DNA from: Pleomorphomonas carboxyditropha
GTDB taxonomy: Bacteria; Pseudomonadota; Alphaproteobacteria; Rhizobiales; Pleomorphomonadaceae
Direction of reading: 5' to 3'
Assembly (NCBI RefSeq): GCF_002770725.1
Contig: NZ_NQVN01000024.1
Span: 1-64,000 of the forward strand
Length of the DNA stretch: 64,000 nt
Shown: positions 7,309-51,064 of the stretch, piece by piece
Numbering within the stretch: position 1 is the stretch's first letter
Layout: each line of letters begins with the position of its first letter
Notes under the pieces: generated by a model
The model's database searches: none
Told to the model about the DNA's origin: nothing
Seen by the model: the letters and a program-made list of their open reading frames with translations, nothing else
Position numbers and translations under genes: made by a program

Positions 7309-7312
7309 AAGC

Positions 7313-32231: not shown

Positions 32232-33082
32232 TGGTTCCTGCTGCCCGCCTCGAAGACGCCTACCGCTACTGCGACGATCTCGTTCGCGACCATGACCGCG
32301 ATCGCTGGCTGGCCGACGGATTGCTTTCCGAGCAAAAGCGCCGGCATGCCCTGGCCATCCATGCCTTCTCCTATGAGGCCGCGCGCATCCGCGAAACCAT
32401 TCACGAGGCGATGCCCGGCGAGATTCGCCTGCAATGGTGGGTCGATGCCATCGAGGGTGAGGCGCGCGGCGACGTCGCCGGCCATCCGGTGGCGGCGGCG
32501 CTGATCGATACCATCCGCCGCTTCTCGCTGCGCCGGTCGGGCTTCGTCAATCTCCTGGAAGCGCGCCGCTTCGACCTTTACGACGACGCCATGCCGACGC
32601 TCAACGACTTCGAAGGTTACGCCGGCGAGACGGCGTCGGTGCTGTTCCTCGAAGTGGCGCAGGTGCTTTGCAACGGCGCCGATCCGCAGGCGGCCGACGC
32701 CGCCGGCCACGCCGGCGTCGCCTATGCCCTGACCGGATTGATGCGGGCGCTGCCGATCCACGCGCGCCGCAATCAGGTCTACCTGCCCGCCGACCTCCTG
32801 AAAGCCGCGGGGATGGATCCGGACGACCTGCGTCACGGTCGCAAGGCCGAACAACTGGCCGGCGTTCTCGCCGATCTCAGGGAGCACGTCGCCGGACATC
32901 TCGACAAGGCGCTTGCCGCCCTCGCGGCGGCGGATCCGCGCACCAGGCCGGCCTTCCTGCCGCTCGCCTTCGTCAGGCCCTACCTGAAGGCGCTCGCCAA
33001 GGCGCAGCCCTATGGTCCGGTGGCCGAGCTGGCGAACTGGCGGAAGCCGCTGATCCTCTGGCGGTTCGGCCGGCGGCTTTAG
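32231..33082 (+). CDS. Squalene/phytoene synthase-fold protein without catalytic Asp motifs, NDUFAF6-like
   Basis: This 283-residue protein keeps the fold markers of squalene/phytoene synthases (RLQWWVDAIEG, FEGYAGETASVLFLEVAQ, YALTGLMRALPIHARRNQVY). Where phytoene synthase has its second DxxxD (DVGED before ARRGRVYLP) this protein has ALPIH, and the first Asp motif region reads HAFSYEAARIRE. Both metal-binding motifs are therefore missing, as in the complex I assembly factor NDUFAF6. A prenyl-transfer reaction is unlikely. It overlaps the upstream NDUFAF3-like gene by one base, and its 3' end overlaps by a few bases the convergent small-subunit gene of the Ehr module. Confidence 0.85.
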   Translation: MVPAARLEDAYRYCDDLVRDHDRDRWLADGLLSEQKRRHALAIHAFSYEAARIRETIHEAMPGEIRLQWWVDAIEGEARGDVAGHPVAAALIDTIRRFSLRRSGFVNLLEARRFDLYDDAMPTLNDFEGYAGETASVLFLEVAQVLCNGADPQAADAAGHAGVAYALTGLMRALPIHARRNQVYLPADLLKAAGMDPDDLRHGRKAEQLAGVLADLREHVAGHLDKALAALAAADPRTRPAFLPLAFVRPYLKALAKAQPYGPVAELANWRKPLILWRFGRRL

Positions 33083-33600
33083 CCCCTGGCGCTGGCCTCT
33101 ACGAGGCCGATCAGTCCCTTCAGCATGTCGATCGGCTCCGGCGGGCAACCGGGGATGACGAGATCGACCGGGATCACCGCCGACACCGATCCGATCACCG
33201 CGTAGCTCTTGCGGAACACGCCGCAGCCGGCGGCGCAGTCGCCGACCGCCACCACCCACTTGGGAGCCGGCGTCGCCGCGTAGGTGCGTTCGAGGCCCTC
33301 GCGCATGTTGGCCGTCACCGGCCCGGTCACCATCAGCAGGTCGGCATGGCGCGGCGAGGCGACGAAGCGCAAGCCGAAGCGCTCGACGTCGTAGTAGCTG
33401 TTGTTGAGGGCGTGGATTTCCAGTTCGCAGCCGTTGCACGAGCCGGCGTCGACCTCGCGGATCGACAGGCTGCGGCCGAGCCGCGCCTTCGCGGCCACGC
33501 CGAGCCGCTCGGCCAGCGCCTCGATTTCGGCGTCGGCGACCGTCGGCGACCCTTCGGTCACCGGCCGTCGGAACAGGCCTTCGAGCAGCATTCTACGCAT
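33079..33600 (-). CDS. hyfI: Ehr/hydrogenase-4-like small subunit (HyfI/NuoB homologue)
   Basis: This 173-residue membrane-peripheral electron-transfer subunit holds the proximal (N2-type) 4Fe-4S cluster. All expected ligands are present: CNGC at Cys55 and Cys58, then Cys122 (with Cys126 nearby) in VGDCAAGCGVF, and Cys152 in IPGCPPEP. It is the last gene of the hyfBCEFGI-like operon, 15 bases after the large-subunit gene. The intact cluster site contrasts with the altered large subunit, so electron transfer is probably retained. The symbol is by homology only. Confidence 0.9.
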   Translation of the reverse strand: MRRMLLEGLFRRPVTEGSPTVADAEIEALAERLGVAAKARLGRSLSIREVDAGSCNGCELEIHALNNSYYDVERFGLRFVASPRHADLLMVTGPVTANMREGLERTYAATPAPKWVVAVGDCAAGCGVFRKSYAVIGSVSAVIPVDLVIPGCPPEPIDMLKGLIGLVEASARG

Positions 33601-33615
33601 GATCGGTCATCCGCA

Positions 33616-35178
33616 TCAGAGATCGTGCCCGGAATAGGAACAGTTGAACGACTTGTTGCACAGCGGGAAGTCGGCGACGATGTTGCCCTCGATCGCCGCC
33701 TCCAGGAGCGGCCATTGGAAGACCGACGGGTCGCGCACGGCCCCCCGCAGCACGCGGCCGGTTTCGTCGGTCCTGAGCCAGACCAGCACGTCGCCGCGGA
33801 AGCCCTCGACCATGGCGAGCCCCTCGGTGGCGCTGTCGCGCGGCTCATGGGCAAGGCCGCCGGCCTGTGGCACCCGCCGCTCGCGCAACGCCGGTGCCAG
33901 CGGATAGGCGATCGGCCCGGCCGGCAGCCGGTCGACGATCTGCTCGATCAGTTCGAGGCTCTCGTAGACCTCGTCGATGCGCACCCAGATGCGGGCGTCG
34001 ACATCGCCGTCTTCCCGCGTCGCCATCTTGAAGTCGAGGTCGCCGTAAGGCGGATAGCCCGGTGCCTTGCGGGCGTCGAAGGCGCGGCCCGAGGCGCGGC
34101 CGACCGGCCCGCCGGTCCCGAAACGGCGGGCAAGCTCCGGCGTAAGATGGCCCGTGGCGACGGTGCGGTTCTGCAGCGACGCGGTATTGTCGTAGAGTTC
34201 GACCAGGCGGGGGAAGCGCTGGCGAATGCGCGCGGTCAGCGCCTTGATCGGCGCGGCATCAGACAGGTCTGAGGCGACGCCGGCCGGAACGATGCGGTCC
34301 ATCATCAACCGGTGGCCGAAGGCGACCTTGGACGCGCGCAGCACCTCTTCGCGCAGCATGCCGCAGTGAGCCAGCATCAGCGCGAAGGCGGCGTCGTTGC
34401 AGATGGCGCCGATGTCGCCGAGGTGGTTGGCGAGCCGTTCGAGTTCGGCCATCAGCGCGCGCAGCCAGACCGCCCGCTGCGGCACGGCGACGCCCAGCGC
34501 CGCCTCGGCCGCTCTGGCGAAGGCCAGGGAATAGGCCACCGTGCTGTCGCCGGACACGCGGGCGACCACCTTGGCCGCCGCCTCCAGCGTCGTGTCCGCC
34601 AGCAGCCCCTCGATGCCCTTGTGGACATAGCCGAGCCGCTCCTCCAGCCGCACGACGATCTCGCCGTTGGCCGAGAAGCGGAAGTGGCCAGGCTCGATGA
34701 TGCCGGCGTGCACCGGGCCGACGGCGATCTGATGCAGCGGCGGCCCCTCGGCCTTCAGGAAGGGGTAGGGCGCGCCATCGGCCGGCACCTTGTCGGCCGC
34801 GCCGAGCGGAGCACGGACGCCCCAACGGTCGTGGTCGAGCCAGCGGCGGTCGTCCGGCATGCCCTCCGGGATGAGGCCGTGGAGATCGGCGATCGCCCGT
34901 TCGAGGCGCTGGGCCGGCGGGTGCGTCAGGCCGACCGACGGGAAACGGCCGTCGGGGGCCGCGAGCGTCAGCACCATCAGCGCGCCATCCTCGTCGTCGA
35001 GCACCGCCATGTGCACGGCGCCGGGCTCGGCCCACAGGCCGGCCAGGGTGGCGTTGCCGGCGGCGATCGCCAGCGTCGCCTGGCGCCAGGTATCGGCGTC
35101 GACGGTGATGCGCGGCCAGGGCTTCTGCTCTTCGATGGTCAGCGCGGCGTTGAGAAGGGCGGTGCGGAGCGTGCTCAT
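33616..35178 (-). CDS. hyfG: Ehr-type large subunit, NuoC-NuoD fusion lacking NiFe ligands (HyfG/HycE-like)
   Basis: This 520-residue protein has an N-terminal NuoC-like domain (about 1-130) joined to a NuoD/hydrogenase large-subunit-like domain (about 150-520). The L1 position where HycE has RVCGICGFAHS reads RVSGDSTVAYS, with Ser209 and Ser212 replacing both cysteines. At the C-terminus the DPCxxC motif is replaced by DFPLCNKSFNCSYSGHDL, with Cys507 and Cys513 five residues apart and no C-terminal peptide for a maturation protease. It should therefore bind no NiFe site. This is the hallmark of Ehr complexes (energy-converting hydrogenase related). Reaction partner unknown; quinone or proton chemistry is possible. 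Confidence 0.88.
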   Translation of the reverse strand: MSTLRTALLNAALTIEEQKPWPRITVDADTWRQATLAIAAGNATLAGLWAEPGAVHMAVLDDEDGALMVLTLAAPDGRFPSVGLTHPPAQRLERAIADLHGLIPEGMPDDRRWLDHDRWGVRAPLGAADKVPADGAPYPFLKAEGPPLHQIAVGPVHAGIIEPGHFRFSANGEIVVRLEERLGYVHKGIEGLLADTTLEAAAKVVARVSGDSTVAYSLAFARAAEAALGVAVPQRAVWLRALMAELERLANHLGDIGAICNDAAFALMLAHCGMLREEVLRASKVAFGHRLMMDRIVPAGVASDLSDAAPIKALTARIRQRFPRLVELYDNTASLQNRTVATGHLTPELARRFGTGGPVGRASGRAFDARKAPGYPPYGDLDFKMATREDGDVDARIWVRIDEVYESLELIEQIVDRLPAGPIAYPLAPALRERRVPQAGGLAHEPRDSATEGLAMVEGFRGDVLVWLRTDETGRVLRGAVRDPSVFQWPLLEAAIEGNIVADFPLCNKSFNCSYSGHDL

Positions 35179-35182
35179 GGTT

Positions 35183-36652
35183 TCATCCCAGCATGCGCGC
35201 GACGTTCTGGAACCAGGCGACCAGCGGCCCCGGCAGGTAGAGGCCGGCGATCAGCACCAGAACGAGATGGACGATCAGCGGCAGCATCGACGGCCGCCGT
35301 CCGGCGTCGACGACGCTCGGCGACGGCTTGCCGAAGGCGATGCCGGTGAGCCGCCAGACGAGAGCGCCGAAGGCCAGGAGCAGGCCGAACACCAGCGGTA
35401 TGGCCAGCAGCGGCTCACGGGCGAAGGTGGAGCTCACCAGCAGGAACTCGCTGGTGAAGATGCCCATCGGCGGCAGGCCGGCGATGGCGGCGACGCCGAC
35501 GACGAGGCTCCAGCCGAGCGTCGGGTGGCTCTCGGTGAGGCCGCGGATGTCGGCGATCTTCTGCGTCCCCTTCACCTGCGCCACCTGGCCGACCGCGAAG
35601 AAGATCGCCGACTTGGTCAGCGAATGCATGGTCATGTGCAGGAGGCCGGCGAAATTGGCGAGCGGTCCGCCCATGCCGAAGGCGAAGGCGATGAGGCCCA
35701 TGTGCTCGATCGACGAGTAGGCGAACAGCCGCTTGATGTCGCGCCGGAGGTACAGCATGAAGCCGGCGAAGATCAGCGACACCAGGCCGAGCGTCACCAG
35801 GAGAGGCCCGGGCGCCACCGCGAAGGGATTGGCGGCGAGCAGCATCTTGAAGCGCAGGAGCGCGTAGAGCGCCACGTTGAGCAACAGGCCCGACAGCACC
35901 GCCGAGATCGGCGTCGGGCCCTCGGCATGGGCGTCGGGCAGCCAGGCGTGCAGCGGCGCCAGGCCGACCTTGGTGCCGTAGCCGAGCATCAGGAACACGA
36001 AGGCGACGTTGAGCAGCTCCGGGCTGAGGGCAGCGGCGTTGGCGATCAGCGTCGTCCACACCATGGCGTCGTGGCCCTCGCCGATCACCGGCCGGGCGGC
36101 CATGTAGATCAGGATGGTGCCGAACAGGGCGAGCGCGATGCCCACCGATCCCAGGATGAAGTATTTCCAGGCCGCTTCCAGCGCCGCCTGCGTGCGGTAG
36201 AGGCCGACCATCAGCACGGTGGTCAGCGTGGCGAGCTCGACCGCCACCCACATCAGGCCGACGTTGTTGGCGGTCAGCCCGAGGTTCATCGAGAAGCTGA
36301 GCGCCTGGTACATGCCGTGATAGAAACGGATGTAGCCCGGCTTCAGCCGGCCGATTTCGATCTCGTGGCCGATATAGCTCGCCGAGAAGATCGACGTGGT
36401 GAAGCCGACGAAAGTGCCGAGCACGATGAAGACGACGTTGAGGTCGTCGACGAACAGGAAGCTCACCGTCGGATCGGGCCGCTCGACGAGCAGCGTCAGC
36501 GCGAACAGGAACGTGAGGCCCGAGGCCAGCATGTTGACGCGGGCGCCGAGCCGGTATTGCGGGATCAGCGCCAGGATAAACGCGGCGACGCCGGGCACCA
36601 CCAGCACGGCGTCGATGGGGGCGAAGGGCAGGAGATGCAGTAACGCGCTCAT
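35183..36652 (-). CDS. hyfF: Ehr/hydrogenase-4-like antiporter subunit (HyfF/NuoN homologue)
   Basis: This 489-residue proton/ion-antiporter-type membrane protein has about 14 TM helices. Conserved features are the TM5 Glu in MWVAVELATLTTVLM, the TM7-loop GYGTKVGLAPLHAWLPDAHA, and FAYSSIEHMGLIAFAFGMGG. In TM8, Asn replaces the Lys often found in this family (GLLLNVALYALL), a feature worth noting for the ion path. It overlaps the HyfE-like gene by 4 bases. Confidence 0.9.
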   Translation of the reverse strand: MSALLHLLPFAPIDAVLVVPGVAAFILALIPQYRLGARVNMLASGLTFLFALTLLVERPDPTVSFLFVDDLNVVFIVLGTFVGFTTSIFSASYIGHEIEIGRLKPGYIRFYHGMYQALSFSMNLGLTANNVGLMWVAVELATLTTVLMVGLYRTQAALEAAWKYFILGSVGIALALFGTILIYMAARPVIGEGHDAMVWTTLIANAAALSPELLNVAFVFLMLGYGTKVGLAPLHAWLPDAHAEGPTPISAVLSGLLLNVALYALLRFKMLLAANPFAVAPGPLLVTLGLVSLIFAGFMLYLRRDIKRLFAYSSIEHMGLIAFAFGMGGPLANFAGLLHMTMHSLTKSAIFFAVGQVAQVKGTQKIADIRGLTESHPTLGWSLVVGVAAIAGLPPMGIFTSEFLLVSSTFAREPLLAIPLVFGLLLAFGALVWRLTGIAFGKPSPSVVDAGRRPSMLPLIVHLVLVLIAGLYLPGPLVAWFQNVARMLG

Positions 36653-37311
36653 TCCCGACCCTCCCGGAAGTCGTCGAGGGCCTGGGTGTCGATGGTGTCG
36701 AAGCGTTCGCGGATGCGGAACAGGAACACGCCGATGACGATGAAGGCGACCAGCACCGAGAAGGCGACGGAGATTTCCACCACCAGCGGCATGCCGCGGG
36801 CGCCGGTGGCGGCCAGCACCAGACCGTTTTCGAGGCTCATGAAGCCGACGATCTGGCTGATGGCGTTCTGGCGCGTCACCATCATCAGCAGGCCGAGCAG
36901 GATGACCGACAGGGCCAGCGCCAGGTCTTCGCGGGCGATCGGGTCGGCCTCGGCGGCGGCCGGCAGCATGACCACCATGGAGAGGGCGACGAGGCCGATG
37001 CCCATCAGCATGGTCGGGCCGATGCCGCCCACCGTCTCGATGTCGCGGTGGACGCCGAGCCGCACCACCATGTGATGCAGCGCCACCGGGATGATGATCG
37101 CCTTCAGGATCAGCGCGATGGCGGCGGTGACGAACAGATGCGGCGCCGACTGGATATAGGCCTGCCAGGCGACCGACAGCGACAGCACCACGGCGTGCGC
37201 CGCGAACACGTTGAGCAGGCCGAGGATGCGGTTCTGGTAGAGCATCATGAAGCTCACCAGCACCATGCCTCCGGCCAGAAGATGCGCGGCGTCGAGGGAA
37301 AAGCGCTCCAT
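36649..37311 (-). CDS. hyfE: Ehr/hydrogenase-4-like HyfE subunit (NuoK-related)
   Basis: This 220-residue membrane protein has about six or seven TM helices. The C-terminal half is NuoK-like, with SQIVGFMSLENGLVLAATGA carrying the conserved Glu. It couples to the HyfF-like gene by overlap (ATGA) and abuts the HyfC-like gene (its ATG overlaps that stop by one base). A Lys in the TM loop IALILKAIIIPVALHH is conserved in HyfE proteins. Confidence 0.88.
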   Translation of the reverse strand: MERFSLDAAHLLAGGMVLVSFMMLYQNRILGLLNVFAAHAVVLSLSVAWQAYIQSAPHLFVTAAIALILKAIIIPVALHHMVVRLGVHRDIETVGGIGPTMLMGIGLVALSMVVMLPAAAEADPIAREDLALALSVILLGLLMMVTRQNAISQIVGFMSLENGLVLAATGARGMPLVVEISVAFSVLVAFIVIGVFLFRIRERFDTIDTQALDDFREGRE

Positions 37312-38264
37312 CAGAAGCTCCGCGAAACGAACAGCAGCAACGTGCCGAGGAAGCCGAGCATCAGCGCGCCGCCGACGAATTCGGGCACGCGGAACACCCG
37401 CATCTTAGCGATCGCCGTCTCGAACACCACCATCAGGAAGCCGCCGACGGCGAGCTTGCCGACCCAGGTGACGACGCCCAGCGTCATGCCGAGGAGGCCG
37501 TCGTCCTGGCGGGCGATGCCCCAGGGCGTGAAGATGCAGGCGATCAGCGAAATGTAGAGCAGGAGCTTCAGCGCCGCCGCCAGCTCGATCACCGCCAGGT
37601 GGCGGCCGGAATATTCCAGCACCATCGCCTCGTGCACCATGGTGAGCTCGAGGTGCGTCGCCGGATTGTCGACCGGCACGCGGGCGTTCTCGGTCAGCGC
37701 CACGATGATCAGGCCGATCAGCGCCAGGCCGAGCGACACGCGCAGCGTGCCGTGATCGACCATGAACTCGGCCACCGTCGAGAGCTGCGTCGAGCCGGCG
37801 ACCAGGGCCACGGTGAACACGATCATGATCATCGCCGGCTCGGCCAGCGTGGCGAACAGCATCTCGCGGCTCGATCCGATGCCGCCGAAGGCCGTTCCGA
37901 TGTCCATGCCGGCCAGCGCCAGGAAGAAGCGGGCCGAGCCGAGCAGCGCGGTGATGGCGATGAGATCGGCTGCCCAGGAGAAATGCAGGCCGGCCGCGAA
38001 GGTCGGCACCAGCGCCGCCGCCACCCAGGTGGTGGCGAAGATCAGGTAGGGCGCGTTGCGGAACAGCCAGGAGGCATTGTCGGCCAGCACCGCCTCCTTG
38101 CGCACCAGGCGCAGGAGGTCGCGATAGGGCTGGAGGATGGACGGTCCCCGCCGGCGCAGCAGGCGCGCCTTCACCTTGCGCGTGAAGCCGACGAGGCCGG
38201 GCGCCAGCGCCAGCACCAGCACCATCTGGAGGCCCTGGACGAGAATGGCGAGGATCAGGCCCAT
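37311..38264 (-). CDS. hyfC: Ehr/hydrogenase-4-like HyfC subunit (NuoH homologue)
   Basis: This 317-residue membrane subunit connects the soluble arm to the antiporter modules. It has about eight TM helices and the NuoH/HyfC signatures RLLRRRGPSILQPYRDLLRL, AGMDIGTAFGGIGSSREML, and ENARVPVDNPATHLELTMVH followed by EAMVLEYSG. ATG 38264 gives the normal length; the frame stays open upstream inside hyfB. It overlaps the HyfB-like gene by 10 bases. Confidence 0.93.
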   Translation of the reverse strand: MGLILAILVQGLQMVLVLALAPGLVGFTRKVKARLLRRRGPSILQPYRDLLRLVRKEAVLADNASWLFRNAPYLIFATTWVAAALVPTFAAGLHFSWAADLIAITALLGSARFFLALAGMDIGTAFGGIGSSREMLFATLAEPAMIMIVFTVALVAGSTQLSTVAEFMVDHGTLRVSLGLALIGLIIVALTENARVPVDNPATHLELTMVHEAMVLEYSGRHLAVIELAAALKLLLYISLIACIFTPWGIARQDDGLLGMTLGVVTWVGKLAVGGFLMVVFETAIAKMRVFRVPEFVGGALMLGFLGTLLLFVSRSF

Positions 38265-40279
38265 GTTGCCACCAGAACGAGGAGGAGGACCAGCGCCGCA
38301 AAGACCAGGCTGAGGTAGCTGCGGATGGTCAGGAACTGCAGGACGTTGAGCCGCTCGGCCGCATAGAGCACGGCGCCTTCCAGCGGCTCGTAGATGAACT
38401 CCCAGATCAGATCGCGCAGAGACAGCGTCAGCCGGGCGGGCGCCAGGTCGCCGGGCGGCGGCATGGTCTGGCTGACCTTGGCCCGGAAGGCGATCGGCCC
38501 GAACACCCGGCGGACCGGCTGGGCGAAGCTGTCGGCGGTGTATTGCGTTGCCGGCGAGGCGTCGGGGAAGCCGCAATCCCAGGGCGGCGCGCGGCGCACG
38601 GCGCGCGAGGCGAAGTTATGGATGACGCGGATGGCCGCCCAGTTCGCCATCAGGATGAAGAAGAACACCAGGAAGCCGGAGTAGGAGCTGCGGCTCTCGG
38701 AGATCGGGATGATGGCGAGATGCGGCAGGAGCGGCTGCTTCGGCATGGCGCCGCCCACCAGCATCTGCGACACCGGCGACAGCGCATCGAGGAACGGTCC
38801 CGGGAAGATGCCGGCGACGAGGCAGACGGCGAGGAGGGCGTACATCGCCCTGATCTGCCAGCGGCCGACCTCCCGCGCCGTTTCGGCGGCCGGCGAGCGC
38901 GGCCGGCTCAGGAAGGTGATGCCGAAGGCCCGGACGAAGCAGGCGGCGGCCAGCGCGGCGGCCAGCGCCAGCATGGCCCCCGACGCCGGTATCAGGAAAC
39001 GCAGCGCCCATTGCGGCAGGTCGGGGCTGATGAGGATCGCCTGCAGGATCAGCCATTCGGAGACGAAGCCGTTGAGCGGCGGCAGCGCCGAAATGGCGAG
39101 GCAGCCGCCGAGGAACAGGTAGGCGGTCTCCGGCATGCGGTGGACGAGGCCGCCGAGCTTCTCGATGTCGCGCTCGCCGGCGCCGGTGAGCACGTTGCCG
39201 GCGCCGAAGAACAGCAGGCTCTTGAACAGCGAATGGTTGAAGGCGTGGAAGATCGCGGCGGTGACGGCCAGCGCCGCCGCGCCGGCCATGTCGTTGGTCT
39301 TGAAGGCGAGGCCGAGGCCGAGGCCGATGAAGACGATGCCGACGTTCTCGACCGTCGAATAGGCCAGGAGCCGCTTGAGGTCGCGCTGCAGCACGGCATG
39401 CAGCACGCCGAGCACCGCCGATCCCGCCCCGAGGATCAGCACCACCACCGCCCACCACCAGGCCGGCTCGCCGGCAAGGTCGAAGACCACGCGGATGAAG
39501 CCGTAGACCGCCACCTTGGTCATCACGCCGGACATCAGCGCCGACACGTGGCTCGGCGCCGCCGGATGGGCCAGCGGCAGCCAGACGTGCAGCGGCACGA
39601 GGCCGGCCTTGGAGCCGGCGCCGAGCAGCATCAGCACCAGCACGAGCCCGGAGAGCCAGGGCGCGTGCCCGGCGGCCCGGATCGACGCGAAGGCATAGCC
39701 GCCGTCCGGCCCGGCCAGCAGGCCGAAGGCGAGCAGCAGCATCAGCGTGCCGAACGACGCCATCAGCAGGTAGACGTAGCCGGCGCGGCGGTTCTCGGCG
39801 TCGTGGTGGTGAGCCATCACCAGCGCCCAGGAACTGAGCGACATGAACTCCCAGGCGACGAGGAACCCGAAGGCATCGGCCGACAGCACCACCAGGTTCA
39901 TGCCGGCGAGGAAGGCCGGATAGAACGGCAGGACACGGCCCGGCTCCTCCTCGTGGGCGCCATAGCCGATGGCGTAGAACGACGCCACCACGGCGCCGAA
40001 ATCGACGATGACGAGGAAGGCGGCGCCGAGCGGATCGAGGGCGAAATGCGCGCCGATCCACGGCAGGCCGATCGGCAGGTGAACGTTGCCCTGGAAGGCG
40101 CTGCCGCCCAGAAGCGCCAGGAGGCCCGAGAGGAGCAGCACGGCGGCGAAGGCGAGGCTCGCGCCGTAGACGGCGGGCGTCGCCCAGTTGACGCGCCGGG
40201 CCACGAGGATCGGCGCCGCCACGGCAACGCCGGCGAGGCCAGCGATACTCAGAAGGGCCGCTACGATCGGCATTGTCAC
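38255..40279 (-). CDS. hyfB: Ehr/hydrogenase-4-like antiporter subunit (HyfB/NuoL homologue)
   Basis: This 674-residue protein of about 16 TM helices has the NuoL/Mrp-type antiporter core. TM5 Glu is seen in GFLVAWEFMSLSSWALVM, the TM7 Lys in LLGAGSKAGLVPLHVWLPLA, and the TM8 Lys in SGVMTKVAVYGFIRV; YSTVENVGIVFIGLGLGLAF follows. Start GTG 40279 is preferred over ATG 40273 because GGGGA lies 7 bases before it. It is the first gene of the six-gene Ehr operon. There is no hyfD, hyfA or hyfH gene, so the complex has two antiporter-like subunits and lacks the ferredoxin-like subunit. Confidence 0.92.
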   Translation of the reverse strand: MTMPIVAALLSIAGLAGVAVAAPILVARRVNWATPAVYGASLAFAAVLLLSGLLALLGGSAFQGNVHLPIGLPWIGAHFALDPLGAAFLVIVDFGAVVASFYAIGYGAHEEEPGRVLPFYPAFLAGMNLVVLSADAFGFLVAWEFMSLSSWALVMAHHHDAENRRAGYVYLLMASFGTLMLLLAFGLLAGPDGGYAFASIRAAGHAPWLSGLVLVLMLLGAGSKAGLVPLHVWLPLAHPAAPSHVSALMSGVMTKVAVYGFIRVVFDLAGEPAWWWAVVVLILGAGSAVLGVLHAVLQRDLKRLLAYSTVENVGIVFIGLGLGLAFKTNDMAGAAALAVTAAIFHAFNHSLFKSLLFFGAGNVLTGAGERDIEKLGGLVHRMPETAYLFLGGCLAISALPPLNGFVSEWLILQAILISPDLPQWALRFLIPASGAMLALAAALAAACFVRAFGITFLSRPRSPAAETAREVGRWQIRAMYALLAVCLVAGIFPGPFLDALSPVSQMLVGGAMPKQPLLPHLAIIPISESRSSYSGFLVFFFILMANWAAIRVIHNFASRAVRRAPPWDCGFPDASPATQYTADSFAQPVRRVFGPIAFRAKVSQTMPPPGDLAPARLTLSLRDLIWEFIYEPLEGAVLYAAERLNVLQFLTIRSYLSLVFAALVLLLVLVATWA

Positions 40280-40319
40280 GTTCGTTCCCCAGACGGGTTT
40301 CGGGCCGCTTTGGGCGGCT

Positions 40320-40457
40320 TCATGAGGCCAACGCGCGGCGATGCGCGCGCATCCGCCCGTTGAGGGCGTCGATCGACGCCGGTGAACCCGCTCCGAGCGG
40401 TGCGGGAGCCGCGATCCCGGCGCGACCGGTGTCGGCGTCGGACGAGGCGGCTGTCAT
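40320..40457 (-). CDS. Possible small leader ORF before the Ehr operon
   Basis: An ATG at 40457 opens 45 codons beginning MTAASSDADTGRAG and ending RAHRRALAS, 40 bases before hyfB and downstream of the candidate promoter. No good ribosome-binding site is visible and the composition (Ala, Gly, Arg, Asp) could arise by chance in GC-rich DNA. Listed as a candidate only. Confidence 0.2.
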   Translation of the reverse strand: MTAASSDADTGRAGIAAPAPLGAGSPASIDALNGRMRAHRRALAS

Positions 40458-40508
40458 GGAAGACTCAAGGATTGGCCGGGAGCATAGCGGCTCGCCGACG
40501 CCACCGAA

Positions 40509-40536
40509 ATTATTTGTTGGTATTCAATCCTTTCAG
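40509..40536 (-). promoter_or_regulatory. Candidate promoter of the Ehr (hyf-like) operon
   Basis: On the minus strand CTGAAA (40531-40536), 16 bases, then AATAAT (40509-40514), a 5 of 6 match to the -10 consensus in one of the few AT-rich spots of the region. It would start transcription about 220 bases before hyfB and make the module independent of hup-hyp. Confidence 0.35.
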
Positions 40537-40584
40537 ATCGGCCGACGCCGCGCCGCTGTTGCACGGATGTCGCGGCGACGCCGG

Positions 40585-41631
40585 TCAGCAGATGCGCGGC
40601 AACTGCTCGCCGGCCAGCCAGTCGACGATGCGGCCGCCGCCGAAGCCGGTGGTCATCTGCACGAAGCGCTGGTCGTCCTCGACCGCCTCGCCGATGATCG
40701 CCGCGTCCGCCCCCAGCGGATGCGACCGCATGGCCGCCACCAATGCCTCCGCCGCCTCGGCCGCCACCACGGCGACGAGCTTGCCCTCGTTGGCGACGTT
40801 GAGCGGATCGAGGCCCAGGAGCTCGCAGGCGGCGGCGACCTGCCGCTTGATCGGGATGTGGTCCTCGACGATGCGGAAGCCGACGCCCGACTGGTGGGCG
40901 AGCTCGTTGAGCGTCGCCGCGAGTCCGCCGCGCGTCGGATCGCGCATCAGCCGCAAATGCGGGCCGGCCGCCGTCACCATCGCCTCGACGAGGCCGTTGA
41001 GCGGCGCGCTGTCGGACAGGATTTCCGTCTCGAAGGTGAGGTTCTCGCGGCTCGACATGATGGCGACGCCATGGTCGCCCATCGAGCCGGAGACGATCAC
41101 CCTGTCGCCGGGCCGCGCCCGATCGCCGGACAGCGCGAGGCCGTCCGGCACCACGCCGACGCCGGCCGTCGAGATGAACACGCCGTCCGCCTTGCCGCGG
41201 TCCACCACCTTGGTATCGCCGGTGACGATCAGCACGCCGGCCGCCCTGGCCGCCGCGCCCATCGAGTCGGCGATGCGCTTCAGGTCGCCGAGCGGAAAGC
41301 CTTCCTCGATGATGTAGCTCGCCGACAGATAGAGCGGCTTCGCCCCGGCCATGGCGAGATCGTTGACCGTGCCGTGGACGGCCAGCGAGCCGATATCGCC
41401 GCCCGGAAAGAAGATCGGCGACACCACATAGCCGTCGGTGGTCATCACCATGCGGCCGCCGGCCGGCGTCGGGAAGCTCGCCTGGTCGTTGCCCTGTTCG
41501 AGCAGCTCGTTGCCGAAGGCGTCCTTGAAGATCGCCGCGATCAGCTCGGCCATGGCGCGGCCGCCGGCGCCGTGGCTCATGTCGACGCGGCCGGCCTTCA
41601 GGTCGAGCTTGCGGCGGAAGGTCTTGCTCAT
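40585..41631 (-). CDS. hypE: Hydrogenase maturation protein HypE
   Basis: This 348-residue ATP-dependent dehydratase turns the carbamoyl group on its C-terminal Cys into thiocyanate, the source of the CN ligands of NiFe. The C-terminus ends PRIC as required. Family stretches are DMSHGAGGRAMAELI, FFPGGDIGSLAVHGTVNDLA, and RDPTRGGLAATLNELA. ATG 41631 overlaps the hypD stop (ATGA); the open frame upstream lies inside hypD. Confidence 0.97.
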   Translation of the reverse strand: MSKTFRRKLDLKAGRVDMSHGAGGRAMAELIAAIFKDAFGNELLEQGNDQASFPTPAGGRMVMTTDGYVVSPIFFPGGDIGSLAVHGTVNDLAMAGAKPLYLSASYIIEEGFPLGDLKRIADSMGAAARAAGVLIVTGDTKVVDRGKADGVFISTAGVGVVPDGLALSGDRARPGDRVIVSGSMGDHGVAIMSSRENLTFETEILSDSAPLNGLVEAMVTAAGPHLRLMRDPTRGGLAATLNELAHQSGVGFRIVEDHIPIKRQVAAACELLGLDPLNVANEGKLVAVVAAEAAEALVAAMRSHPLGADAAIIGEAVEDDQRFVQMTTGFGGGRIVDWLAGEQLPRIC

Positions 41632-42782
41632 GCGCTTTTCCTGAGGCCGGCGTCGGTCTGGTGATGGCGGAAGCGGCCGTAGGTCCAGTGGGCGGCGCAG
41701 GCGCCTTCCGACGACACCATGCAGGCGCCGGTCGGCGTCTCCGGCGTGCAGACGGTGCCGAACAGACGGCAGTCGGCCGGCCGTTTCTGACCGCGCAGGA
41801 TGGCGCCGCATTCGCAGGCCGGATTGTCCTCGGCCGGCTGCGTCTCCACGGTGAAGCGCTTCTCAGCGTCGTAGAAGGCGTAGGCGTCCCTGAGCTTCAG
41901 CGCGCTCCGCGGCACGACGCCGAGGCCGCGCCATTCGAAGCTGTCGCGCAGCTCGAACACCTCGTCGCAGAGGTCGATGGCGACGGGGTTGCCCTCCGTC
42001 CTGACGGCGCGGATATACTGGTTCTCCACCTCGGCCCGCTGCTCGTTGACCTGCCGCACCAGCATCAGGATGGCGTACATCACGTCCAGCGGCTCGAAGC
42101 CGGCGATCACCACCGGCTTGCGGTAGTCGCGGGCGAACACCCGGTAGGGCTCCATGCCGATGATGGTCGAGACGTGCGATGGCCCGACGAAGCCCTCGAT
42201 GGCGATCGGCGGCTCGTCCGGCGTCGGCGTCCTGTCGAGGATGGCCCGCATGGCGACCGGCGTCAGCACGTGGTTGCAGTAGATCGAGAAGTTCTTCAGA
42301 TCCTTGGCTTCGGCCGTCTTCAGCGCCACGGCGGTCGGCGGCGTCGTCGTCTCGAAGCCGATGGCGAAGAACACCACCTGCCGCTCGGGATTGGCCTCGG
42401 CGATGCGGATGGCGTCGAGCGAGGAATAGACCATGCGGATGTCGGCGCCGGCCGCCTTGGCCTTCATCAGGCTGAGGCCGCCGGAGGCCGGCACGCGCAT
42501 CAGGTCGGCATAGGTGCAGAGCGTCACCTCCGGCCGCCTCGCCAGACGGATGGCGTCGTCGATGCGGCCGATCGGCAGCACGCAGACCGGGCAGCCGGGG
42601 CCGTGGATCATCCTGACGTTCTTCGGCAGCAGGTCCTCGATGCCGTAGCGGGAGATCGCGTGGGTATGACCGCCGCAGAACTCCATGAAGGCGTAGGAGC
42701 GATCGGGCCGCACCTCCGCGGCGATGGCGGCGGCGAGCGCACGCGCCTTGTCGCCGTCGCGATATTCGTCGACGTATTTCAT
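41628..42782 (-). CDS. hypD: Hydrogenase maturation protein HypD
   Basis: This 384-residue Fe-S protein forms with HypC the scaffold on which Fe(CN)2CO is built. Conserved motifs are FMEFCGGHTHAI (Cys), GPGCPVCVLP, FAIGFETTTPPTAVAL and the C-terminal cluster cysteines CECGAILRG, DCRLFGTVCTP and GACMVSSEGACAAH. It overlaps hypC and hypE by 4 bases each. Confidence 0.97.
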   Translation of the reverse strand: MKYVDEYRDGDKARALAAAIAAEVRPDRSYAFMEFCGGHTHAISRYGIEDLLPKNVRMIHGPGCPVCVLPIGRIDDAIRLARRPEVTLCTYADLMRVPASGGLSLMKAKAAGADIRMVYSSLDAIRIAEANPERQVVFFAIGFETTTPPTAVALKTAEAKDLKNFSIYCNHVLTPVAMRAILDRTPTPDEPPIAIEGFVGPSHVSTIIGMEPYRVFARDYRKPVVIAGFEPLDVMYAILMLVRQVNEQRAEVENQYIRAVRTEGNPVAIDLCDEVFELRDSFEWRGLGVVPRSALKLRDAYAFYDAEKRFTVETQPAEDNPACECGAILRGQKRPADCRLFGTVCTPETPTGACMVSSEGACAAHWTYGRFRHHQTDAGLRKSA

Positions 42783-43021
42783 CGGGCAGCTCCCACGGCA
42801 AGCGGCACGCCGCGCGCTTCATCGAGCAGATCGAGCGTCCGCCGCGCCTCGTCCGGATCGACCTTGGAAAGAGCGTAGCCGACGTGGACGATGACGTAGT
42901 CGCCGACGGCGACGTTCTTGACCAGCGCCACGGAAATGGTCATCGACACGCCGTCGAGGCTGATCTTGGCCATGTTGTCGGGCAGAAGCTCGGTGACGAG
43001 GGCGGGAACGGCAAGACACAT
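42779..43021 (-). CDS. hypC: Hydrogenase maturation chaperone HypC
   Basis: This 80-residue protein starts MCLAVPALV with the essential Cys2 that binds the iron precursor; ISVALVKNVAVGDYVIVHVG is the family core. It delivers the Fe(CN)2CO group to the large-subunit precursor with HypD. A second member of the family, hupF, lies further upstream and is thought to serve HupL specifically. Confidence 0.96.
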   Translation of the reverse strand: MCLAVPALVTELLPDNMAKISLDGVSMTISVALVKNVAVGDYVIVHVGYALSKVDPDEARRTLDLLDEARGVPLAVGAAR

Positions 43022-43024
43022 GGG

Positions 43025-45289
43025 TCAGATCTCCGAGAAGGCTCGGCGGGCGAGGACGGCCTGCCCGAAGGAAAGGCCGCCATCGTTGGCCGGCAGGCGC
43101 CGGGCGAGGAGGGGGGTAAGGTCGGATTTGGCGAGCGCCGCCGAAAGCCCTTCGGCCAGCACGCGGTTCATCAGGCAACCGCCGCCGAGCGCGACCGACC
43201 CGAGGCCGGTCGTCGCGGCGCCATGGCGGGCGAGGGCGGCGAGCCCGTCGACGAGCGTGCCGTGAAACAGCGACGCGCCGGTGTGGGCATCCGGTCGGAT
43301 GACGGCGAAGTGGGCGAGAAGCGGCGCGAACGACAGAACGCCGTCCGCGAGCGCGAAGCCATCGGCCAGCGCCACCGGCTCGTCGACCAGCGCCTCCAGC
43401 TCCATCGCCGCCTGTCCCTCGTAGTCCTGCACGGCGCGCACGCCGAGCAGCGCCGCAACGGCATCGAACAGCCGGCCGAGCGAGGTGGTGGCGAGCCGGT
43501 CGGCGCCCGAGGCGACGCGGCCGGCGATCGGCCCGACCAGCGGCCGATCGGGGAAGAAGGTGGCTGCGAGATCGGCCCGACCGAGAGCGGCGAGCGCCCC
43601 GGCGCCCATCCGCCACGGTTCGCGGGCGGCGCGGTCGCCGCCGGGCAGCGGCAGCGGTGCCAGATGGCCGAGGCGGCGGTGCGCCGCGCCCTCCACCAGC
43701 AGCAGCTCGCCGCCCCAAGCGCCGCCGTCATCGCCGAGGCCGTGGCCGTCGAGGGCAAGGCCGAGCGCCGGACCCTCATGTCCCGCCTCCGCCGCCACGG
43801 CCGCCACATGCGCGACGTGGTGCTGGACACGGACGACGGGCAGGCCGAACGCTTCGGCCATCTGGCTGGAGCGATAGTCGGGATGGAGATCGCAAGCCAC
43901 CAGCTCCGGCTGGACGCCGACGATGTCAATGAGATGCTGGATCGTCTCGCGGTAGAATTTCAGCGTCTCGGCGGTATCGAGGTCGCCGACGTGCTGGGAA
44001 ACGAAGGCCTCGCGGCCGCGCGTCAGCGTCACCGTGGCCTTGAGATGGGCGCCGAGCGCCAGCGTCGCCGGTCCGTCTTCGGCAAGGGCGATCGGCTCGG
44101 GCACATAGCCGCGCGCCCGGCGCAGCAAGCTCGGCGCGCTGGCGATCACCTGGGCGACGCTGTCGTCGGCGCGTACGACGATGGCGCGGTCGTGGGTGAC
44201 GATCAGGTCGGCGATGCCGGCGAGGCGGCGGGTGGCGTCGGCATCATCGACCACCAGCGGCTCGCCACCGGGATTGGCCGAGGTGGCGACCAGCACGAAA
44301 TCGTTGGCGGCGTGCGGATCATGGCCGGCGAAATCACGGCCGGCCAGCGCCGCGAACAGCAGATGGTGGACCGGCGCATAGGCCAGCATGACGCCGACGC
44401 GGCGAAGACCGGGCGACACGGCCGGCGCCAGCACGCCGGGTTTTGCCCGCATCAGCACGATCGGCCGGGCGACCGACGAACAGAGCGCCTGCTCCTGCGG
44501 CGACGCCTCGGCGACCGCAGCGATCGAGGCGGCGTTGGCCAGCATCACCGCGAAGGGCTTGAATTCGCGCGCCTTCCTCGTCCGGAGCGCCGCGACCGCC
44601 TCGGCATTACGACCATCGCAGATGAGATGGAAGCCGCCGATGCCCTTCAGCGCCACGATACGGCCGGCCCGGATCGCCGCGGCGATCTCCGGAATGGGAT
44701 GGCTGAGCTTCGGCCCACAGGCGGGACAGGCGACCGGCTCGGCGTGGAAGCGCCGGTCGCGCACGTCCTTATAGGCAGCGGCGCAGTCCGGGCACATCGG
44801 AAAATCGGCCATCGACGTCTGCCGCCGGTCGTAGGGCAGGCGGCGGGTGATGGTGTAGCGCGGACCGCAATGGGTGCAGTTGACGAAGGGGTAGGCGAAG
44901 TAGCGGCTCGCCGGATCGAACAGCTCGGCGAGGCAGGCGTCGCAGGTGGCGGCGTCGGCGACGATGCGCGTCGTCGTCTCGCCGCCGAGGCTCTCGCGGA
45001 TGACGAACTCGTCGCCGCCGGCGAGCGGAAGTTCCGCGCGCTGAACCGTGTCGATGCGGGCGAGCGGCGGCGCCTCCGACGTCAGGCGCCGCACGAATTC
45101 CTCGACGCGAGCGCCCTCGACCTCGATGGTGACGCCATCGGCGCCGTTGCGGACGTAGCCGGCAAGGCCGCACTCGGTGGCGAGCCGATGCACGAACGGC
45201 CGCATGCCCACGCCCTGCACGGCGCCGTTCACCTTCAGGAAGAGGCGCGCCGCGGGGGCGAAGGCGTCGGGGGCGGGCACGGCGGTCAT
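43025..45289 (-). CDS. hypF: Carbamoyltransferase HypF
   Basis: This 754-residue protein makes the carbamoyl group for the cyanide ligands from carbamoyl phosphate. Domains in order are acylphosphatase (VNGAVQGVGMRPFVHRLA), two zinc fingers (CDACLAELFD, NCTHCGPRY, MCPDCAAAY, ACPACGPKL), YrdC-like (about 200-380) and a Kae1-like C-terminal domain with VQHHVAHVAAVAAEAG. ATG 45289 is used; the long open frame upstream overlaps hypB and is not family-like. It sits between hypB and hypC. Confidence 0.96.
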   Translation of the reverse strand: MTAVPAPDAFAPAARLFLKVNGAVQGVGMRPFVHRLATECGLAGYVRNGADGVTIEVEGARVEEFVRRLTSEAPPLARIDTVQRAELPLAGGDEFVIRESLGGETTTRIVADAATCDACLAELFDPASRYFAYPFVNCTHCGPRYTITRRLPYDRRQTSMADFPMCPDCAAAYKDVRDRRFHAEPVACPACGPKLSHPIPEIAAAIRAGRIVALKGIGGFHLICDGRNAEAVAALRTRKAREFKPFAVMLANAASIAAVAEASPQEQALCSSVARPIVLMRAKPGVLAPAVSPGLRRVGVMLAYAPVHHLLFAALAGRDFAGHDPHAANDFVLVATSANPGGEPLVVDDADATRRLAGIADLIVTHDRAIVVRADDSVAQVIASAPSLLRRARGYVPEPIALAEDGPATLALGAHLKATVTLTRGREAFVSQHVGDLDTAETLKFYRETIQHLIDIVGVQPELVACDLHPDYRSSQMAEAFGLPVVRVQHHVAHVAAVAAEAGHEGPALGLALDGHGLGDDGGAWGGELLLVEGAAHRRLGHLAPLPLPGGDRAAREPWRMGAGALAALGRADLAATFFPDRPLVGPIAGRVASGADRLATTSLGRLFDAVAALLGVRAVQDYEGQAAMELEALVDEPVALADGFALADGVLSFAPLLAHFAVIRPDAHTGASLFHGTLVDGLAALARHGAATTGLGSVALGGGCLMNRVLAEGLSAALAKSDLTPLLARRLPANDGGLSFGQAVLARRAFSEI

Positions 45290-45296
45290 CGTCTCG

Positions 45297-46217
45297 TCAG
45301 GCCCGAACGACGGCGGCGGCGCGGGAAAGGGCGGCGCGCGCCTCGATCCAGGCATAGAAGGCGGCCATGCCTTCGCCGGTCTCTGCCGAGACCACCAGCG
45401 TCTGGAGATGCGGATTGACCCTGAGCGCGGCCGCCAGGCACTTGCCGACATCGAATCTCAGATGCGGCAACAGATCGGCCTTGTTGAGGAGCAACAGGTC
45501 GGCGACGGCGAACATGTCGGGATATTTCAGCGGCTTGTCTTCCCCTTCGGTAACCGACAGCACCACGACCTTGTGCGCTTCCCCAAGGTCGAAGCCGGCC
45601 GGGCAAACGAGATTGCCGACGTTCTCGATGAACAGCAGGCCGCCCGGCTCGGACCTGATGTCGTCGAGCGCGGCGCCGACCATGCCCGCTTCGAGGTGGC
45701 AGCCCTTGCCGGTATTGATCTGAACGGCGCGGGCGCCGGTCGCCCGGATACGCTCGGCGTCATTGTCGGTCTGCTGGTCGCCTTCGATGACGGCGATCGG
45801 AAACTTCGCCTTGAGGTCTTCGATGGCGCGGACCAGCAGCGTCGTCTTGCCCGAACCGGGCGACGACATCAGGTTGAGCGCCAGCGTGCCGGTGGCTGCG
45901 AGGCGGGCGCGGTTCTGCCGCGCGGCGTCGTTGTTCCTGGCGAGAATATCGCGCTCGATGCGGATCACCCGCTCGCCGTCGACGCCGGGCTGATGCACGG
46001 CGGCCAGCGGCGCCGCATGCACATGGTGATGATGCCCGTGATCATGGGCATGCCCATGGTCATGAGAATGCTCGTGCGAATGATCGTGGTCGTGATGGTC
46101 GTGATCATGATCATGCGGGTGATCATGGTCATGCGCATGGCCGTGCAGTTCCGCCGGTGTCTTGCCGTTGATCCGGTAGCCGGTGCCGCCCGAGCCGCAG
46201 CCGCAATCCTTGCACAT
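45297..46217 (-). CDS. hypB: Nickel-insertion GTPase HypB, His-rich
   Basis: This 306-residue GTPase inserts nickel into HupL. The N-terminus [11 protein letters not shown] carries the CxxCGC nickel site. Residues about 25-67 are a long His/Asp run of the kind that stores nickel in rhizobial HypB. The P-loop is [11 protein letters not shown] (about 118), followed by [13 protein letters not shown] and NKADLL. ATG 46217 shares one base with the hypA stop (TGATG); a GTG one codon earlier is possible. Confidence 0.97.
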
Positions 46218-46558: not shown

Positions 46559-47534
46559 CGGCCGGCCCTTTCGGGACGACGTCCACCGCAACACAGGGAG
46601 AGAATTGCGCCGCCAGCCGGGCGATCGCCGTCACGGTATCGCCGTCCGGCCGGAACCCTGCGAGGGCGCGCGCAAACGGTCCATCGGGATGGAAGTTCCA
46701 TTCCGTGGGAGCGACGACGCGGGCGTCTCGGAGCCGTCCATCTCCTTGCACCACGGCAAAATAATATAACCTGCCGCGTGGACTTTCCACTGAGGCGTAT
46801 CCCGTATTGGTCTGCGTCCGGCTTGCGGCGAGCCAGGCGGTGAAATCCCGGTCGTTACCGGCGCCGTTCAGGAGAATGCCGAGCGCCTCCTCCGCCTCGA
46901 CGAGGCGGGCCGCATCGGTGGCGCCTGCCACCGATGCCGACCAGCCGAGGCGGACGGCCGGTCCGGTTTCCGGGTGCCGGCCGGGAAGAAACGGTCGAGA
47001 GGCAAAATCGGCGTCGCTCTCCAGGGCGGCCACGACGGCGGCATCGTCGTCGACGGTCAGCGCATCCGGCGGGGAGGGGTGTCCCGGCAGCGCCGGCAAC
47101 CAGTCCGGCACCAGGCCGAAGGCCGTGCCGATGGTGCGGATATCGTCGCCGACGATACCTGTCCGCGCCGCCTTGCGCGCGGCGTCGAGGGCATCGCGCA
47201 CGATCGGGAAGGCGGCGACCGGCGCGAGACGCACCAGTTCGCGCAGATGCTCGGCGATGCGCTCCGCCGCCAGACGAATCCGCCAGCGTTCCGCCTCCTC
47301 CCGTCCGATGGTGCGATTGCCCGCCGCCGCGGCGGCGAAAGTCAGCGCGGCGGCATGCGACACGCCGCAAACCGCGTTGACGAGGCCGACCGCCTCGACC
47401 GCCTGTTCGATTGGGCGGCCGGCAAAGCGCGAGGCCAGCGACAAGGGCCGCGCCGAGCCGATCGACGCCTCGGTGACCACGCCATCGGTCAGGGAGAACC
47501 GGACGGTGATCCGGCCGGGATCGAAGCCGCTCAT
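46551..47534 (-). CDS. hupK: Hydrogenase expression/formation protein HupK
   Basis: This 327-residue protein is a degenerate relative of the hydrogenase large subunit. The L1-like motif reads AVCGVSHAAAL (Cys56, His60, second Cys replaced by Ser or lost), and the end carries a single Cys in FSPCVAVDVVP, like half of DPCxxC. HupK is thought to be a scaffold or storage protein during Fe-group transfer in membrane-bound group 1 hydrogenases. It overlaps hupJ (4 bases) and hypA (8 bases). Confidence 0.88.
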   Translation of the reverse strand: MSGFDPGRITVRFSLTDGVVTEASIGSARPLSLASRFAGRPIEQAVEAVGLVNAVCGVSHAAALTFAAAAAGNRTIGREEAERWRIRLAAERIAEHLRELVRLAPVAAFPIVRDALDAARKAARTGIVGDDIRTIGTAFGLVPDWLPALPGHPSPPDALTVDDDAAVVAALESDADFASRPFLPGRHPETGPAVRLGWSASVAGATDAARLVEAEEALGILLNGAGNDRDFTAWLAASRTQTNTGYASVESPRGRLYYFAVVQGDGRLRDARVVAPTEWNFHPDGPFARALAGFRPDGDTVTAIARLAAQFSPCVAVDVVPKGPADA

Positions 47535-48028
47535 TGCCCGCTCTCCGGCGCGCCGCGTCCGAAACCGAGAAGACGCCGGCGATCGAGGTTGATGGTCAGG
47601 GAATCGATTTCCGACGGCTCGGCGTCACGCAGCAGCTCGTCGAGCGCCGCGAAGGCGACCTCTTCGGCGGCTAGCTGATCGTCGAATGCGTCCATCGGCG
47701 AGAACAGCGATGCGGCACCGTAGCGGCTGCCGCCCTCCATCGACGCCACCACGAAATCGACGTCGCCGGCCGGCAGCTCCAGCCGCAGCGTGACACCGTC
47801 CGGCGGCAGCTCGATGCCGGGATCGGGCACGGCGACGACGTTCATGCACCAGGGCGTCACCACCGCGGCGAAGCGGAAGCGGCCGAAGCGCCGGACCGGC
47901 GTCGCCATGACGGCGAGCGCCGGATTGTGAACGGCAAGGCCGGCCATGCGGCCATCGACGGCCCGCCAGAAGCCTTCGAGGCGACCGGCGAGTTCCTCGT
48001 CATCGAGGCTGGACGCATCAGCGGTCAT
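47531..48028 (-). CDS. hupJ: Hydrogenase assembly protein HupJ (HybE family)
   Basis: This 165-residue protein corresponds to the HupJ/HybE chaperone family. VHNPALAVMATPVRRFGRFR followed by AAVVTPWCMNVVAVPDP is the recognised core, with a GSRYGAASLFSPM segment. These proteins assist small- or large-subunit maturation before Tat export. It overlaps hupI by 11 bases. Confidence 0.88.
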   Translation of the reverse strand: MTADASSLDDEELAGRLEGFWRAVDGRMAGLAVHNPALAVMATPVRRFGRFRFAAVVTPWCMNVVAVPDPGIELPPDGVTLRLELPAGDVDFVVASMEGGSRYGAASLFSPMDAFDDQLAAEEVAFAALDELLRDAEPSEIDSLTINLDRRRLLGFGRGAPESGQ

Positions 48029-49739: not shown

Positions 49740-49751
49740 GGGTTGGCTCCC

Positions 49752-50318: not shown

Positions 50319-50322
50319 GCGC

Positions 50323-51054: not shown

Positions 51055-51064
51055 GGCAATGCCC

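Follow-up and report, generated by a model that had tools for sequence, protein, structure and literature searches.

The window analysed here is a 64,000-nucleotide stretch of Pleomorphomonas carboxyditropha (contig NZ_NQVN01000024.1, positions 1 to 64,000), whose genome consists of 5.88 Mb in 80 contigs. On the minus strand at 33079-40279 it carries an operon of hyfB-C-E-F-G-I homologues, and analysis of this operon and its relatives indicated that the encoded complex is almost certainly not a hydrogenase. The reading preferred here, which is given a probability of about 0.5, takes it for an Ehr complex: a homologue of group 4 hydrogenases in which H2 handling has been lost and which would work as a redox-driven ion pump fed by a low-potential carrier. 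Ehr is a published family (PMC6349859, PMC4378227, PMC12342949, PMC10284858, PMC5037454; each covered here in part), so the non-hydrogenase claim is not new. In the parts covered, Ehr function is stated as unknown (PMC4378227, PMC12342949, PMC10284858), and the HydDB classifier is described as having been trained to leave Ehr out, as a family that does not act on H2 (PMC5037454). The correction of the L2 register, the motif counts, the hypD test and the case of the reduced genome G553 given below were not seen in the parts of the Ehr literature covered.

The six-gene operon

An earlier note on this DNA, made from the letters and a list of open reading frames (ORFs), had proposed a six-gene Hyf-like operon at 33079..40279, which was borne out by the ORFs and by the NCBIfam and Pfam profiles used to assign the gene families. 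The six ORFs were tightly packed, lying end-to-end or overlapping. The features of the operon were as follows.

38255..40279, minus strand: hyfB-like antiporter-like subunit, 674 aa; NF005086, 848 bits (cut-off 667); E144, K224, K255, E408
37311..38267, minus strand: hyfC/nuoH-like membrane anchor, 318 aa; PF00146, E 7e-39; HycD 7z0s_D, E 7e-43; E193, E213, E218
36649..37311, minus strand: hyfE-like membrane subunit, 220 aa; NF008556, 81 bits (under the cut-off of 136); K70, E161
35183..36652, minus strand: hyfF-like antiporter subunit, 489 aa; NF005043, 838 bits (cut-off 533); E139, K228, N259, E402
33616..35178, minus strand: hyfG-like large subunit, NuoC-like plus NuoD-like, 520 aa; HycE 7z0s_E, E 3.9e-59; TM-score 0.85
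33079..33600, minus strand: hyfI/nuoB-like small subunit, 173 aa; PF01058, E 3e-31; 4Fe-4S ligands C55, C58, C122, C152
34543..34560, minus strand: L1 region of hyfG, residues 207-212 (RVSGDS), CxxC replaced by S209/S212
33628..33657, minus strand: L2 region of hyfG, residues 508-517 (NKSFNCSYSG), CxxC replaced by S514/G517

The operon identity is beyond chance, given the match to HycE and the presence of the large subunit in all 14 genomes of the genus. The complete set, arranged B-C-E-F-G-I, was found in 66 of the 81 rows compared, which comprise the window and 80 named loci; the 15 rows with missing members all end at a contig end, as judged by coordinates. Among 28 further loci, 19 had the full order, the Rhodococcus locus had the I gene first, three were true Hyf loci, and L166 was interrupted by a contig end. 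The six Ehr genes form a self-contained unit that does not include a HyfH gene.

Metal site of the large subunit

The closest solved relative of HyfG was HycE of Escherichia coli formate hydrogenlyase. The register was taken from gapless alignments with HycE, a true Hyf of Rhodovastum, two ECH enzymes of the same genome and NuoD of the same genome. The four [NiFe] Cys positions corresponded to Ser209 and Ser212 in L1 (R207-V-S209-G210-D211-S212) and to Ser514 and Gly517 in L2. The alignments confirmed the replacement of CGIC in L1 by SGDS that the earlier note had described. Its placement of L2 at LCNKSFNC was in the wrong register, since DPCxxC aligned with N512-C513-S514-Y515-S516-G517 and C513 fell at the proline position. 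The wider claim that the large subunit has lost all NiFe ligands stood, with none of the four Cys present in any of the alignments.

The two ECH enzymes of the same genome kept both CxxC pairs (RVCSLCSNSH...DPCISCTER and RICSLCSNSH...DPCLSCTER). HyfG has no cleavable tail, as had been noted; this is weak evidence, because the two intact ECH large subunits are also without a tail. These enzymes are two further group 4 enzymes of the genome, encoded at L007 (G000 C22) and L008 (G000 C55). One of the two loci adjoins what we take to be a Ni-CODH-like gene and the other presumably hypA/hypB-like genes (names by reading).

Four substitute cysteines at the NiFe site, which according to the earlier note would have spoken against its claim, were also looked for. 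No CxxC occurred in HyfG of the window, which has four Cys in total; in a 60-row alignment they were conserved in 56 (C260), 39 (C272), 51 (C507) and 52 (C513) rows, so that none was invariant among the 60 rows, and none of the four stood in a ligand column. The AlphaFold model of HyfG built on this alignment reached a pLDDT of 86.3 (71.8 for an earlier model on 15 rows), with values below 50 over most of 142-182, a segment that includes the GPVH loop, and over 517-520. Its best fold match was the HycE chain (TM-score 0.85), followed by NuoCD.

The His and Tyr of NuoD that belong to the quinone site of complex I corresponded to Ile161 and Gly210 in HyfG (gapless against NuoD of the same genome). 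Since both the NiFe ligands and the quinone His/Tyr are gone, the HyfG site, as judged from the alignments, is not that of a hydrogenase, nor is it a standard site for quinone.

Conserved polar pocket

HyfG carries a nearly invariant polar motif, RxSGDS ... NKSFNxSYxG. Among the 80 named relatives, R207, G210, D211, H157, E162, H252, D262 and R290 were present in all 80, S209 in 79 (one Cys) and S212 in 75. N508, K509, S510, N512, Y515, G517 and D519 were kept in 79/79 rows (one row ends early) and S514 in 78/79. The charged residues R207, D211 and K509 were present in 60/60 rows of the alignment described above. In the divergent Ehr rows, N508-K509-S510 was kept in 21 of 22 (LKS in L170), and none of the 22 had a CxxC at L1 or L2, a lone Cys at 209 being found in L169. 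The SGDS segment varied more in these rows (GGEP in L124, SADS in L171 and L174, AGDS in L177). Such strict conservation is unlike that of decayed subunits.

The divergent large subunit at L170:7466-9067, in which LKS replaces NKS, also had an altered GPVH loop (GPVFGGVEASSQFLF).

FeS cluster, electron entry and ion path

The earlier note had the small subunit keeping its 4Fe-4S ligands, and C55, C58, C122 and C152 were indeed present. In the 76 named loci counted, these four and E59 were always present; of the 21 divergent Ehr rows, 20 retained the four Cys. The absence of a HyfH-type ferredoxin subunit was likewise confirmed by the ORF list of the window operon and by a motif scan of the 81 rows. 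The scan used the pattern CxxCxxCx3-4C[PA] alone on the available stretch of each locus (15/81 incomplete) and found a ferredoxin-motif ORF in 2/81 Ehr rows, both outside the six-gene operon. In 27 further loci it found three, which were exactly the three true Hyf loci. In the genome of the window, strong NuoI/HyfH-type matches belonged only to complex I and the two ECH operons; five more matches were weak (22-27 bits), and no orphan subunit of this type with a strong score was found there.

The Glu and Lys residues of the antiporter subunits were kept, as had been claimed. In HyfB, counting non-gap rows in sets that may include a few paralogous rows, E144 was conserved in 92/92, K224 in 91/92, K255 in 84/92 and E408 in 93/94 rows. 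The corresponding counts in HyfF were 98/99 for E139, 98/100 for K228 and 99/101 for E402, and E193 of HyfC and K70 of HyfE were each found in 94/94. At the TM8 Lys position of NuoM, HyfF has Asn259, and Asn also occurred there in two of three true HyfF compared. HyfB and HyfF are related to Mrp antiporter subunits. The description of the complex as an ion-translocating, complex I-like machine agrees with these residues, from which we infer pumping itself.

Distribution and phylogeny

The large subunit was found in 14/14 genomes of the genus and in 0/6 genomes of other genera of the family (E <= 1e-60). Pleomorphomonas sp. NRK KF1 (L040), a close relative, shared 90% identity in the large subunit. 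Across the order, 55 of 397 genomes had a match (E <= 1e-40); the carrier set used below comprised 53 of them, after G166 and G180 were dropped (30-32% identity, hydrogenase-like) and with G330 kept on a partial 65% match. Among plasmid records, 61 of 72,556 matched (E <= 1e-60). In a sample of the phylum, 89 of 349 genomes matched a wider Ehr profile. Of these, 61 scored at least 536 bits and were Ehr-like, and the matches below the gap, at 342 bits or less, were mostly hydrogenase-like. Opening 20 of the phylum-sample loci showed that 16 were Ehr. Ehr complexes are thus widespread, and they are often annotated as hydrogenase-4 or NADH-quinone oxidoreductase.

In the phylogenetic tree, proteobacterial Ehr stood apart from Hyf, ECH and NuoD (support 100/99). 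L123-L125, from Actinomycetota, Deinococcota and Bacillota, lay on the other side of this separating branch, with long branches of their own, so their placement is unsure.

Several variant loci were observed. No small-subunit gene was found within 4 kb downstream of the Ehr hyfG of L182 (G651 C7). An Alicyclobacillus plasmid carried a lone large-subunit homologue (L125:8668-10164), the other five genes not being found in the 19-kb stretch. A tandem pair of hyfB-like genes preceded an otherwise standard Ehr operon at L181:1-4183. In two alphaproteobacteria of 2-2.5 Mb, a different, Cys-less and very long-branched large subunit with an SSFGILSTG-type C-terminus occurred with a NuoB-like gene (L167:7953-9488 and L168:7102-8634).

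Hydrogenase maturation genes and H2

A hypD match was absent (E <= 1e-60) from 21 of the 53 carrier genomes, 17 of these 21 being at least 97% complete, and the 21 covered nine genera. By this genome evidence, [NiFe] maturation is unnecessary for Ehr. Together with the absence of CxxC from the Ehr rows compared, this upheld the earlier designation of the complex as Ehr and not a hydrogenase. Within the genus, hypD and hyfG were 7.6-8.2 kb apart in the 13 genomes with a hypD match; the fourteenth, G012 (86% complete), had none. In the parts of the sources covered, H2 did not increase Ehr expression in Nitrospira moscoviensis (PMC12342949), and a Geobacter coculture had higher levels of Ehr subunits than pure culture did (PMC8691401).

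Ehr in the reduced genome G553

G553 is an alphaproteobacterium of about 0.94 Mb (100% complete). NuoD scored over its cut-off in 26 of 27 genomes searched (25 Ehr carriers plus two odd ones, G431 and G655), the remaining one being G553, which had a fragment only. Consecutive fragments of nuoD, nuoC and nuoB lay on its contig C5, and the only NuoH matches found in the genome were parts of HyfC. The Ehr genes were intact for B (665 aa, near the end of C5) and for E (226 aa), F (499 aa), G (500 aa) and I (184 aa) on C21 (L186, L187), while hyfC was split across two contig ends that would meet. This shows that Ehr is kept in G553 where complex I is lost; replacement of complex I is not thereby implied.

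By best family, G553 had FixABCX-like genes, each scoring below its curated cut-off, as well as a Wolinella-like FrdABC and GlpABC, and an NfnAB-like fusion and a membrane pyrophosphatase were also present. FixABCX and NfnAB use low-potential carriers. Oxidase and bc1 motifs were not found in G553 by pattern scans.

Relation to known systems

Membership in Ehr was judged by features, and published Ehr were compared by description only; the relatives aligned came from genome contigs and plasmid records. The definition used here follows PMC6349859 and PMC10284858, in the parts covered. The window large subunit is encoded together with Mrp/Nuo antiporter-like membrane subunits. Like the Ehr of Geobacter, Sulfobacillus, Nitrospirales, Margulisbacteria and Methylacidiphilum, the window complex combines a group 4 large-subunit homologue without NiFe ligands with antiporter-like subunits. 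In Sulfobacillus, six syntenic genes are likewise described near each large subunit (PMC4378227, in the part covered). The alphaproteobacterial rows differ from the published descriptions in mostly carrying C507 and C513, and in having an upstream XRE regulator in 34 of 81 rows.

Hydrogenase-4 and formate hydrogenlyase (Hyf, Hyc) gave the best structural and sequence matches of G, B and C and have the shared genes in the same order; unlike them, the window operon lacks HyfA, D and H, the NiFe ligands and HycH/HycI (control locus L127). With complex I (NuoB/CD/H/L/M/N/K) the window complex shares a homologous soluble and membrane core, the FeS site and the ion-channel residues, but it is without the NADH module (NuoEFG) and NuoI, and I161 and G210 stand in place of the quinone His/Tyr. 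MBX/MBS of Pyrococcus is also a hydrogenase-derived non-hydrogenase, and its chain 6u8y_L matched HyfG at E 5e-21. MBX keeps one CxxC pair, has more Mrp-type subunits and reduces polysulfide or sulfane at the one-CxxC site. The difference from an Mrp antiporter is the redox arm, G and I with conserved FeS ligands.

Proposed mechanism and alternative explanations

Redox-driven ion pumping is probable for the window complex from its residue patterns; transfer of electrons from carrier to quinone is put forward more tentatively, at less than even odds. A soluble low-potential carrier of ferredoxin or flavodoxin type would deliver electrons directly at the HyfI cluster, which would be uncovered because HyfH is missing. 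The electrons would pass to an acceptor in the HyfG polar pocket (R207, S209, D211, N508, K509, N512, Y515), the simplest candidates being a quinone bound in an altered way or some other small polar molecule. This electron transfer would then drive ion translocation via C and E and the antiporter subunits B and F. The carrier, the acceptor, the direction and the pumping are all inferred from sequence, and the acceptor is the main doubt of this mechanism.

Partner enzymes that might supply the electrons were searched for. The FixABCX idea originated from G553. FixX was defined as an NF011993 match at E <= 1e-8 (1e-6 for 12 diverse carriers), and the counts cover FixX alone. Outside the genus, such matches occurred in 18 of 39 genomes with Ehr versus 22 of 344 without it; among nifH-positive genomes outside the genus the counts were 14/14 and 20/37. 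All FixX matches were under the curated cut-off of the family, and they were counted unsorted by frame length, 7 of 41 lying in open frames longer than 300 aa. FixABCX was rejected as a general donor on the absences given below; because the genome of the window has no FixX, this partner is not obligate, and it may feed Ehr in some lineages. A nitrogenase link was set aside as well: nifH over its cut-off was enriched outside the genus (14/39 with Ehr versus 37/344 without), yet 25 of the 39 carriers were without it. A dedicated partner in the neighbourhood was rejected, as clustering of the 81 loci by blastp gave only the XRE regulator. A formate dehydrogenase partner, proposed for Ehr of Margulisbacteria in the part of PMC6349859 covered, was unsupported in the neighbourhoods examined.

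Several observations weigh against a carrier-fed redox pump. Thirteen of the 14 genomes in the genus, that of the window included, had no FixX match, nor did 10 of the 12 diverse Ehr carriers of the phylum, one of the two positives being G553. The association counts for FixX, nifH and hypD were uncorrected for kinship. The quinone ligands of complex I are not conserved, an argument against a quinone site of the complex I type. The small subunit of Allomeiothermus silvanus (L124:11269-12141) has lost all four FeS Cys, so at least one relative is without the FeS site; it has an N-terminal extension with CxxCxxC. Free ferredoxin or flavodoxin was not found in motif scans of G553, which may reflect a limit of the scans. 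Finally, hypD was commoner in carriers outside the genus (19/39 versus 68/344), so some tie to hydrogen users is possible. This co-occurrence and the proximity of hypD in the genus could also reflect shared habitat or regulation.

Three other explanations are each unlikely. The complex could be a redox pump with a dedicated trans partner, FixABCX or formate dehydrogenase, docking at the place that HyfH has in formate hydrogenlyase. The FixX enrichment outside the genus, the FixABCX-like genes retained in G553 and the formate dehydrogenase proposal (PMC6349859, in the part covered) agree with this, but FixX is missing from nearly all genomes of the genus and from most diverse carriers, its matches all fall below the curated cut-off with kinship uncorrected, and no formate dehydrogenase-type ferredoxin-motif ORF was tied to the operon, whose only conserved neighbour is the XRE regulator. 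The relationship of B and F to Mrp subunits, the operon without an electron-entry subunit and the Allomeiothermus relative are what one would expect of an Mrp-like ion exchanger or antiporter that works without redox chemistry, its soluble arm having a structural or regulatory role and its FeS site being a relic. Against such an exchanger stand the FeS Cys kept in all 76 named loci and nearly all divergent rows, and a pocket beside the cluster that is conserved like a catalytic site; in Allomeiothermus, the N-terminal CxxCxxC might itself hold a cluster. The pocket could also act on a small molecule other than quinone, such as a sulfur compound as in MBX/MBS, or CO2/bicarbonate. That R207, D211 and K509 are invariant in a site with neither NiFe nor quinone ligands would fit this chemistry, but no conserved neighbouring gene indicates a substrate, and both CxxC pairs are gone, unlike in MBX.

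A working hydrogenase with an altered metal site is far less probable than any of these. HycE is the closest solved homologue and fold, and in the genus the complex adjoins hyp genes; the loss of all four Cys ligands without any invariant Cys, the 21 carriers without hypD and the N. moscoviensis expression result (PMC12342949, in the part covered) all argue against it.

On the carrier-fed pump reading, Ehr might add a third class of active site to the complex I/hydrogenase superfamily, next to the NiFe and quinone types, with an S-G-D-S / N-K-S-x-N-x-S-Y-x-G pocket by one FeS cluster in an ion pump able to stand in for complex I (cf. G553); this wider proposal is rather doubtful. If a carrier-driven ion pump is correct, the complex would fill a gap in the energy conservation of rhizobia, purple bacteria and nitrifiers, and would offer a simplified system in which to study the redox-pumping coupling of complex I. 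Specific residues of the conserved pocket can be targeted by mutation, the carriers without hypD offer backgrounds that have no [NiFe] maturation, and G553 provides a natural example in which complex I was lost and Ehr retained.

Neighbouring genes and minor observations

Blastp clustering of the 80 named loci and the window found no conserved neighbour apart from the XRE-type regulator, which lies upstream on the same strand; the window copy is without it. This regulator is small (for example L045:4585-4890) and overlaps hyfB by 4 bases in Rhizobium johnstonii 3841, which has its Ehr genes on pRL11. The Variovorax record L121 had two places matching the large subunit, and 3.4 kb upstream of its Ehr operon (L121:1-416) lay an incomplete gene annotated '4Fe-4S binding protein' that was small-subunit-like by profile.

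Directly upstream of the window operon, and outside the complex, were the following features.

40280..40584, minus strand: hypE-hyfB gap, 305 bases; sigma-70-like match at 40536-40509 (0.1 expected)
40585..45316, minus strand: hypE, hypD, hypC and hypF; NCBIfam matches

No terminator-like site was found in the 305-base gap, and a transcript shared by the hyp genes and the Ehr operon is possible. Upstream of hyp, at 47531-54033 of the window, lay genes for a group 1 uptake hydrogenase, namely both of its subunits (small and large), cytochrome b, a HupD/HyaD-type protease and a HybE-like chaperone. At the other end of the window (1-8629, plus strand), a gene run resembled phage head genes (portal, protease and capsid), as judged from the ORF list alone.

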